Shown here piece by piece: positions 12,884-18,641 of a stretch of DNA of 32,491 bases; the first letter of the stretch is position 1; each line of letters begins with the position of its first letter. The notes beneath the pieces are model-generated. The model was given only the letters and a program-made list of their open reading frames with translations, was not told the origin of the DNA and ran no database searches. The stretch is from a virus, in IMG/VR virus record IMGVR_UViG_3300027704_000090, positions 1 to 32,491 of that record; one strand, given 5' to 3'. A program made the position numbers and the translations under genes.

Positions 12884-13092
12884 AGCAGGATATTCTAATC
12901 TATTTATTTACGGTTCACGGGGCGTCTGCTGGTGATATTGCGCAAGGCATATCAGCCCATCCAAGGAAGGTTCAGGATCTTTTGATCGAGATGGACGATG
13001 ATGATGAGGTAATTATGCGGAACGGGTTTTACCGTTTGAGTGAACTTTCCAGAGCAAAGGCAATAAAGAAATTTGACGCACTGACGATATAG
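12880..13092 (+). CDS. Possible winged-helix DNA-binding protein (70 aa)
   Basis: It overlaps the preceding gene as ATGA. The order GASAGDIAQGISAHPRKVQD, an acidic patch (EMDDDDEV) and FYRLSEL is the shape of a small winged helix: helix-turn-helix, then a beta wing. As the third gene of the control operon it could regulate the structured region that follows or the initiator gene. No family name is secure. Confidence 0.6.
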   Translation: MKQDILIYLFTVHGASAGDIAQGISAHPRKVQDLLIEMDDDDEVIMRNGFYRLSELSRAKAIKKFDALTI

Positions 13093-13224
13093 TGTAAAAA
13101 AAAGTGGCGGGGAGCTGTGGGAAGCTCGACCCGCCTAGTAATGCCAAGCTGTCGGGAGGCAGGAACAGCGAAGGCGAAACGCATAGAGAGATGCGTCGGC
13201 TCAGTCATATACTGGGTTCGACGT

Positions 13225-13232
13225 TTGTACAA
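13225..13232. promoter_or_regulatory. TTGTACAA palindrome in the leader region
   Basis: An 8-bp perfect palindrome, part of TTTGTACAAT. The same 8-mer occurs elsewhere only at the late promoter (21984-21991), as far as I could find by eye. It may be an operator for the same protein. No good -35 box accompanies it. Confidence 0.35.
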
Positions 13233-13239
13233 TAAGCAA

Positions 13240-13274
13240 AAGCCCCCAGTCGTATATGATACAACTAGGGGCTT
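13240..13274 (+). other. Long hairpin in the leader (possible attenuator)
   Basis: AAGCCCC pairs with GGGGCTT; after a C/A mismatch AGT pairs with ACT; after a second C/A mismatch GTAT pairs with ATAC, closing a 3-nt loop. That is 14 base pairs broken by two symmetrical mismatches. There is no clear U-run after it (GAGTTT), so it is not a typical intrinsic terminator. Its right arm can pair instead with 13355-13364. Confidence 0.6.
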
Positions 13275-13359
13275 GAGTTTCCGCTGGTAAGGCGGTAGTC
13301 TCTGAGCATCAACTGCTGAGAAACTTGTAGCACGTCGTGGTGGCGTAGCGCAACACTCA

Positions 13360-13374
13360 GCCCCAAAAGAGGGC
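13360..13374 (+). promoter_or_regulatory. Hairpin that can hide the initiator's ribosome-binding site
   Basis: GCCC (13360-13363) can pair with GGGC (13371-13374) across a 7-nt loop. The right arm contains most of AGAGGG, the likely ribosome-binding site, which ends 7 nt before the ATG at 13381. The left arm lies inside ACTCAGCCCC, which can pair instead with 13268-13278. Confidence 0.45.
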
Positions 13375-13380
13375 ATTTAT

Positions 13381-14112
13381 ATGCACAGCTTTGAACCCGA
13401 AATTGCAGCGAGGGTTGGATTAAACGCTGCTGTTATTTACCAGAATATTGTTTGGTGGACGCAGAAAAATGCTGCGAATGCAAAGAACATTAGAGATGGG
13501 CTTGTTTGGACGTATAACAGCCGCACAGCTTTTGGAAAACTTTTCCCATACCTTACACAAAGCCAGATCAAAACTGCGCTTTCAAAGCTGGTTGATACAG
13601 GCTTGCTGGTAAAGGGTGAATACAACGCGGCAAACTACGACAAGACGAATTGGTATTCACCAATTGTAAGTGCAGAATGGATCAATAACGCCATTGGTCA
13701 AAAATCGCCAATGGATTGGTCAGAAATAGCCAATGGATTGGTCAAAAATCGCCAACCTATACCAGATATTAAACCAGATATTAAACCAGTTGTTAAACCT
13801 ATAGATCATTTTGAAGATTTCTGGGCCTCTTATCCTCGTAAGATCGGTAAGGGAAACGCAAGGAAAGCTTTTGAAAAGGCTATGAAGAGTGCAACGATTG
13901 ATGAAATATCCTCTGGGTTAAATTCACAGTTGGACATCCTCACAAGCAAAGAACAAAAATTCATACCACACGCAGCTACATGGCTAAACGGAGAAAGATG
14001 GAACGATGAACCAGATCACAACAAAGAGATTAATTCCCGCAGCCACGCCACGCTTGACGCAATCGCTATCGCCGCAAGAGCAAGCAGATCACCGAGCGAA
14101 GATTGCTTTTGA
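13381..14112 (+). CDS. Replication initiator (lambda O-like / replisome organiser)
   Basis: A 243-aa protein. The N-terminal winged-helix region has the replisome-organiser look: IAARVGLNAAVIYQNIVWWT, then GLVWTYNSRTAFGKLFPYLT and IKTALSKLVDTGLLVKGEY. A flexible linker (about 103-140) holds PDIKPDIKPVVKP. The C-terminal part, HFEDFWASYPRKIGKGNAR to HAATWLNGERWND, is typical of phage initiators. As in lambda O, the linker-coding DNA contains the likely origin. The protein would bind the iterons and recruit the loader encoded next. Translation may be controlled by the upstream structured leader. Confidence 0.85.
   Translation: MHSFEPEIAARVGLNAAVIYQNIVWWTQKNAANAKNIRDGLVWTYNSRTAFGKLFPYLTQSQIKTALSKLVDTGLLVKGEYNAANYDKTNWYSPIVSAEWINNAIGQKSPMDWSEIANGLVKNRQPIPDIKPDIKPVVKPIDHFEDFWASYPRKIGKGNARKAFEKAMKSATIDEISSGLNSQLDILTSKEQKFIPHAATWLNGERWNDEPDHNKEINSRSHATLDAIAIAARASRSPSEDCF
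13693..13797. other. Putative replication origin (iterons plus AT-rich repeats)
   Basis: Three direct repeats of 22 bp lie end to end at 13693-13714, 13715-13736 and 13737-13758. Their shared core is ATTGGTCAAAAATCGCCAA, with two changes in copy 2; ATTGG/CCAAT in each unit gives dyad symmetry. Four bases later come three 12-bp AT-rich repeats (CCAGATATTAAA twice, then CCAGTTGTTAAA) at 13762-13797. Because 22 is not a multiple of 3, the copies are read in three different frames. The repeat is therefore kept at DNA level, not for protein. The arrangement matches lambda ori inside gene O. Confidence 0.8.
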
Positions 14113-18371: not shown

Positions 18372-18641
18372 ATGAATAGATCTGAAATTTTACAGCTTGC
18401 AGAGCATTATGTTTCAAAAGACAGATCCAAAACTCACGGATCGGCGGAGGATAACTTCACTGAGCTTGGTAAGCTGTGGGGATGCCGACTGGGGATTGAT
18501 CTGCACCCGTCACAGGTCGCAATCATGCTGCTAGACCTCAAGACAGTGAGAGCGTGGAACAATCTGGGGAATGAAGACAACTGGGTCGATATGGCTGGCT
18601 ACGCATCATGCGGTGGAGAAATCGCAACTAAGATTGATTAA
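18372..18641 (+). CDS. DUF6378-like protein
   Basis: An 89-aa protein with the pattern of this small phage family: KTHGSAEDNFTELGKLWGCR, then LHPSQVAIMLLDLKTVRAW and NWVDMAGYASCGGE. Helical, with conserved Asp and Lys in the second part, reminiscent of MazG-like nucleotide-binding helices; enzyme activity is not shown. It is the last gene before packaging genes. Confidence 0.7.
   Translation: MNRSEILQLAEHYVSKDRSKTHGSAEDNFTELGKLWGCRLGIDLHPSQVAIMLLDLKTVRAWNNLGNEDNWVDMAGYASCGGEIATKID

Follow-up and report, generated by a model that had tools for sequence, protein, structure and literature searches.

What occupies the long gap before the replication initiator gene of a tailed phage, and could it govern how much initiator is made? 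The window analysed here, a 32,491-base virus record that encodes a PHROG 156 portal protein, raises this question at positions 13093-13380. An earlier note had read these positions as a structured leader whose successive segments pair with one neighbour or the other, in the manner of an attenuator or riboswitch, with the last helix lying on the ribosome-binding site of the gene that follows.

The gap and its two leader elements

The early region of the window is lambda-like, with Erf and exonuclease genes running leftward, and with rightward genes for a repressor-like HTH protein, a small nuclease-like protein and a 70-aa protein, followed by the gap and then by the initiator gene (13381-14112, + strand; PHROG 11233, E 3e-31, replication initiation protein), which would be under control of the leader. 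The gap is indeed the longest between likely genes (288 nt; the next in length are 173 and 148 nt), and every segment that the earlier note quoted is present at its position. The gap is more stably folded than its dinucleotide shuffles on the + strand (z -3.0) and even more so on the - strand (z -4.5). Elsewhere in the window, an 89-aa protein (18372-18641) matches PHROGs 474 and 1167, which are labelled phosphofructokinase; it is much too short for that enzyme, and the family name is probably misleading.

That the gap is a protein-coding gene, or that its helices arose by chance, is hardly credible. A 115-aa minus-strand ORF at 13029-13376 does stay open in the window, but relatives carry stops at the homologous place, indels from leader to leader are not in multiples of three, and coding ORFs in the gap were rejected on either strand because relatives show stops; chance helices are ruled out by the covariation described below. 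No tRNA or tmRNA was found in the gap. The statement that the region matches no recognised RNA family holds: a search of Rfam 15 with the window and seven relatives gave zero matches at the gathering score and chance-level matches only at relaxed limits. The ctRNA families in Rfam likewise did not match the leader, cultured phages and plasmids gave no real match to it at this sensitivity, and a literature search, which cannot prove absence, found no description of it.

To understand the make-up of the gap, relatives were collected via the initiator and the 70-aa protein. Eight of them align with the window over about 13060-13239. In most of these eight, AAAAGGAAATGTCGATG or a comparable site follows directly, and nothing corresponding to 13240-13380 is present. 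The opposite holds for L003 and L004, which match the window over 13240-13380 and have no counterpart of the gap's first part; the 70-aa gene was undetected in both. These separate alignments show that the two parts, here termed elements A and B, are separate leaders placed in tandem by recombination, and that the 288-nt gap is a natural fusion of the two. Strand d, the last of A, has been lost from the window, where B supplies the ribosome-binding site. One link of the chain proposed in the earlier note, the pairing of 13211-13216 with 13245-13250, spans the joint between A and B; no relative found has both elements, which leaves this link without comparative support, and it looks incidental, a probable by-product of the fusion. 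The composite nature of the gap had been overlooked in that note, as had the real switch of element A, namely the pairings a:b, b:c and c:d, of which the window lacks the final strand, d.

A putative promoter for the leader, TTGACG-16-TAAAAA (13073-13100, + strand), lies a few nucleotides 5' of the first hairpin, P1. The nearest relatives have a homologous site, TTGACG/TTGGAC-16/17-TAAAAT, at 8-12 bits, with P1 4-6 nt downstream; the site is weaker in clade A2, and a strict consensus scan does not flag it.

Competing helices over the ribosome-binding site

Element A extends in the window from P1 to strand c (13105-13239, + strand; strand d lost), as delimited by a nine-leader alignment and by an independent covariance model. 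This model, built from 12 leaders with the window and its near relatives left out, gives the window a score of 43.5 bits, with E between 1.1e-9 and 1.9e-9. A pattern search brought up many copies beyond the first relatives, and the element is known from 37 leaders of viral contigs; it was not found among the listed upstream sequences of initiator homologues in cellular genomes. Over the 37 aligned leaders 98.3% of the cells of helices P1-P5 are paired (85.1 when shuffled, 33-45 when slid), and double-sided changes affect 28 of the 42 pairs, with 194 such cells against 41.7 after shuffling, figures that lean upward because the alignment was fitted to the structure and because relatedness of the leaders inflates pairing and change counts.

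The individual helices differ in their strand behaviour. P1 (13106-13135; GGCGGG-GAGCT/AGCTC-GA-CCCGCC) has double-sided changes in 6 of its 12 pairs and is terminator-like on the minus strand, where its tail reads CTTTTTTTTACA. P2 (13143-13175) pairs GCC with GGC and GCTGT with ACAGC, and helices 2 and 3 together show double-sided changes in 9 of 10 pairs in relatives. P3 (13178-13196) is formed by strand a (13178-13184) with strand b (13189-13199), and has 99.6% of its cells paired, two pairs with double-sided change and no G-U. P4 (13200-13216, + strand; CTCAGT/ACTGGG) has double-sided changes in all six pairs among relatives and many G-U on the + strand; its core is the pairing of CAGT 13202-13205 with ACTG 13211-13214 given in the earlier note, which is thus borne out. 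Strand c (13218-13228, + strand) has b as its partner in the open state and, in relatives, the Shine-Dalgarno region d, which is absent here. The helix c:d, or P5, always covers the ribosome-binding site in element A leaders, and its loop, CCACAA, is nearly invariant. CsrA-like GGA loops were rejected as an explanation, since GGA is not kept in the loops of P2 and P3.

In the 3' half of element A, therefore, a:b (P3), b:c and c:d (P5) compete with one another, and c:d hides the Shine-Dalgarno site of the initiator. The b:c helix around P4, first proposed by RNAalifold, has 93% of its cells paired against at most 50% in slid controls, and a covariation score of 0.259 versus 0.177 that is reached by none of 500 shuffles; double-sided change occurs in only 4 of its 9 pairs, a count that 203 of the 500 shuffles also reach. 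This helix is conserved, with moderate covariation. For c:d, counted in a register that was set by hand before the model existed, 218 of 233 cells are paired, whereas shuffles of entire strands give 195.7 +- 4.5. In structure prediction for 11 leaders, c:d, i.e. the site-hidden form, was the ground state in 10, with the free-site state 1.3-10 kcal/mol above it. Element A has the logic of an attenuator with the ribosome-binding site as its last arm: across the 37 leaders it combines a stem-loop hiding that site with a competing upstream strand, and a site-hiding switch in this family is well supported by leader comparison. In the window itself this stem-loop has been replaced by element B.

Element B (13236-13380, + strand), the second leader, supplies the working ribosome-binding site and is homologous, with rigid spacing, to the leaders of L003 and L004. 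Only these three copies are known, and a pattern search for more returned L003 and L004 as the only real matches. Its hairpin B1 (13240-13274), also picked up by the terminator scan, contains the earlier note's pairing of 13240-13246 with 13268-13274, which recurs in L003 and L004 with different sequence; on the minus strand it forms 16 pairs and then TTTT, with a stability of -24.7 kcal/mol versus -16.7 on the plus strand, the T-rich tail following on the minus strand. No convincing minus-strand promoter common to the three copies was found. The long-range helix of 13268-13278 with 13355-13364 (+ strand) is kept in L004, where GAGT:ACTC is replaced by GCCT:AGGC, but the alternation claimed for it applies only to the GGGGCT half, as GAGT:ACTC can form in both states. 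The site-hiding helix GCCC:GGGC (13360-13363 with 13371-13374, + strand), which lies over the Shine-Dalgarno sequence AGAGGG (13368-13373), is kept as GCCC:GGGC in L003 and as GCCU:GGGC, with one U-G, in L004, and 13371-13374 is mostly paired in the predicted fold. The predicted folds of the window are close in energy, -54.5 kcal/mol with B1 and the site-hiding helix versus -51.8 with the long helix; the long-helix fold of B alone is not predicted to free the ribosome-binding site, and the B fold of L004 is no better than chance.

The proposal of mutually exclusive helices ending on the ribosome-binding site of the initiator is upheld by covariation in relatives, with the amendment that two fused elements are involved, that one link is incidental and that B is represented by three sequences only. 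For the family, regulation of the initiator by its leader is well supported; for the window phage, where it would act through element B, which may work like element A, it is probable. The scan of the window found no sense-strand terminator (hairpin with U-run), only a minus-strand terminator-like site, and the sequences have no U-run behind B1 or P5 on the + strand. The aligned leaders of groups A, B and the window have no conserved leader ORF, and a leader-peptide attenuator was rejected for the window, as the short ORF with a Shine-Dalgarno sequence is conserved in neither A nor B and is present in a further group, C (see below). With no sense terminator arm found and no conserved leader peptide in A and B, nothing points to a ligand-binding riboswitch, and antisense-RNA control is the better fit to the evidence.

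A candidate counter-transcript and the alternatives to it

G-U pairs occur on the + strand in P4, P5 and b:c. In P1-P3, 7 of 1038 standard cells are G-U, and five of the 7 fall in a single, apparently misaligned column pair; these helices switch freely between G-C and A-U despite the near-absence of G-U. Pairs with double change that also show G-U number 2 of 16 in P1-P3 versus 8 of 10 in P4/P5 (p 0.001, indicative as the sequences are related). The mean fold z of P1-P3 is about -4.3 on both strands, and that of P4-P5 is -3.2 and -1.3. Such a near-absence of G-U together with equal folding of both strands is as expected if RNA is read off both strands across P1-P3. Further, the minus-strand U-tract behind P1 has a mean of 6.8 T of 12 in group A versus 2.7 in ten group C leaders, which share P1 and use a leader peptide. 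The P5 loop (CCACAA) and the P4 loop together form a minus-strand TTGTGG-17/18-TANNNT, which is often the best promoter-like site there, and a start behind it would fall near strand b; promoter scores are modest, and clade A2 and the window score poorly.

From the both-strand folding, the lack of G-U, the U-tract and the promoter-like site of the relatives (poor in the window) we infer a counter-transcribed RNA over the element A leader (13097-13200, minus strand), which would start near b/P4, form three hairpins and end in the U-tract behind P1. Among the explanations considered, an antisense RNA accounts best for these signals on both strands, with about an even chance in our estimate, and the predicted RNA may repress initiator synthesis in trans.

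The reading of the whole gap that we favour by a small measure is that it is the 5' leader of the initiator mRNA, of the kind known from pT181, pSK41 and repABC, with a counter-transcribed RNA. In the family of element A, the leader transcript would begin at P1, just behind its own promoter, and end on the ribosome-binding site. With strand c paired to b the site would be free, and with c paired to d (the Shine-Dalgarno and start region) it would be hidden; a:b would compete with b:c, the site-hidden fold being more stable. A counter-transcript of ~100 nt, starting near b and running leftward through P3 and P2 to end at P1, would pair with the nascent leader and remove b, upon which c:d would close the site, the resulting logic being that of initiator dosage control in pT181, pSK41 and repABC. 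In the window phage, recombination swapped the last part of A for B, with its own site-hiding helix and minus-strand terminator-like hairpin. Comparison of the leaders establishes the helices, the a:b/b:c/c:d alternation, the + strand sense of P4 and P5 and the fusion; the promoters, the antisense RNA and its effect are predicted.

The + strand switch, which is the best supported part, and its closed default state would also suit a regulator working on the sense strand only, in which the same alternation responds to a protein or metabolite or to the timing of folding (a riboswitch, autoregulation or a kinetic timer). We consider this unlikely, as it leaves unexplained why P1-P3 are constrained on both strands, why the minus strand has a U-tract and why the P5 loop hardly varies; no Rfam aptamer was matched, and the initiator is exchanged behind the same leader, contrary to autoregulation by it. 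The symmetry of the two strands and the lack of G-U in P1-P3 would equally fit hairpins that act as DNA, for example as part of a replication origin or as a primosome site beside the initiator gene. This is improbable, given that P4, P5 and b:c accept G-U on the + strand and that P5 always lies over the ribosome-binding site; moreover, a U-tract is not expected of such hairpins, and leader types A, B and C are swapped before the same initiator family, contrary to a fixed origin. A 5' hairpin directly behind a promoter is a known type of stabiliser, and the structures could in principle form a passive leader that stabilises the mRNA or fixes the level of translation with no switching; the conservation of b:c despite its conflict with both a:b and c:d makes this quite improbable.

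Initiators behind the leader and related control systems

The MHSFDP initiator follows leaders of type A, as do two HTH_36 proteins, one whose C-terminal part is similar (L021:3366-4082) and one in which it differs (L025:3220-3930); on one contig (L283) a small T5orf172-type protein does. Element A thus precedes at least three different N-terminal domains and is not bound to a single initiator. The same leader is found in L021, L025, L116, L266, L269, L300 and L304 before initiators with unrelated N-terminal DNA-binding domains (HTH_36 types), so that the origin-recognition domain changes behind a leader that stays. The presence of a type A leader before different initiators also makes it unlikely that control is exerted by one initiator binding its own leader.

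A different arrangement is seen in group C, comprising 21 relatives with initiators of the same family (L010, L051, L053, L054, L056, L058, L061, L062, L064, L066, L074-L077, L081, L082, L086, L087, L089, L091 and L092). These have an ORF of 15-16 aa (M..NTRH..I.QG..) whose stop overlaps the initiator start by ATGA in all 21, preceded by a detectable Shine-Dalgarno-like motif in 18 of the 21; at least ten group C leaders also carry P1. Three further relatives have longer leader ORFs overlapping the initiator start. Within one phage group, then, the initiator is gated in two ways, through a site-hiding switch or through translational coupling. Among more distant initiators (L034, L036, L079, L093 and L097), leaders open with a GC-rich hairpin and have inverted repeats near the Shine-Dalgarno sequence, with different sequences; these are possibly further leader types. 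Separately, many marine Rhodobacterales (L124-L158, mostly genomes of this order) have an initiator homologue about 100-150 nt behind an apparent tRNA gene. A stretch resembling an inverted repeat, CGTACAAAACCTGTACAAAATTCGCACGTTTGTGCG, is conserved before the start of this initiator-like gene, and the locus has the look of a fixed element sited at a tRNA.

Leader-peptide attenuators and translational coupling are familiar from trp, erm and IncFII/IncI rep. The phage leaders share with these a chain of alternative helices and, in group C, a leader ORF overlapping the initiator start, whereas groups A, B and the window depart from them in having no conserved leader ORF. Closer in logic are the pT181/pSK41 plasmids, in which the antisense RNAI acts on the repC/rep mRNA leader (PMC5703833). 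In both cases a pre-emptor strand in the initiator leader competes for the 5' arm of the ribosome-binding-site stem-loop (PMC5703833), and the pSK41 stem-loop hides that site (PMC5703833) as c:d would here. However, those are Gram-positive plasmids with unrelated sequences and a proven antisense RNA, while here the RNA is predicted, the carriers are tailed phages and several different initiators lie downstream. The repABC plasmids have a ctRNA between repB and repC (PMC3155836) and likewise combine a counter-transcribed RNA (predicted in our case) in the intergenic leader of the initiator with alternative folds that set Shine-Dalgarno access (PMC3155836), but their antisense RNA triggers a sense-strand terminator (PMC3155836), and no such terminator was found here. 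Like lambda OOP (PMC5869508), the RNA predicted here is short, leftward, ends in a terminator hairpin and is encoded in a lambda-like early operon, immediately ahead of the initiator gene. The target of OOP is cII, with whose 3' end it shares 52 bases (PMC5869508), whereas the predicted RNA sits in the initiator leader and would end outside the upstream gene: its U-tract (about 13097-13104, minus strand) is beyond the upstream stop codon at 13090-13092, and so no OOP-like overlap with the upstream gene is predicted. Extrachromosomal mycobacterial prophages have an RNA-based replication that requires a noncoding RNA region and operates without RepA (PMC7157519); they too have a noncoding RNA bearing on phage replication (PMC7157519), but here a protein initiator follows.

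More broadly, it is possible, though we put it forward tentatively, that tailed phages carry a widespread and portable replication-dosage cassette, in which an antisense RNA and a leader toggling the ribosome-binding site of the initiator are kept while the DNA-binding domain is exchanged. To our knowledge, plasmid-like dosing of the replication initiator is not something usually attributed to tailed phages. If true, copy-number control of the plasmid style would limit phage genome replication. A conserved site-hiding leader before several initiators, probably under an antisense RNA, would make both the timing of phage replication and incompatibility between related phages directly testable. 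The element would also add a structured RNA family missing from Rfam.
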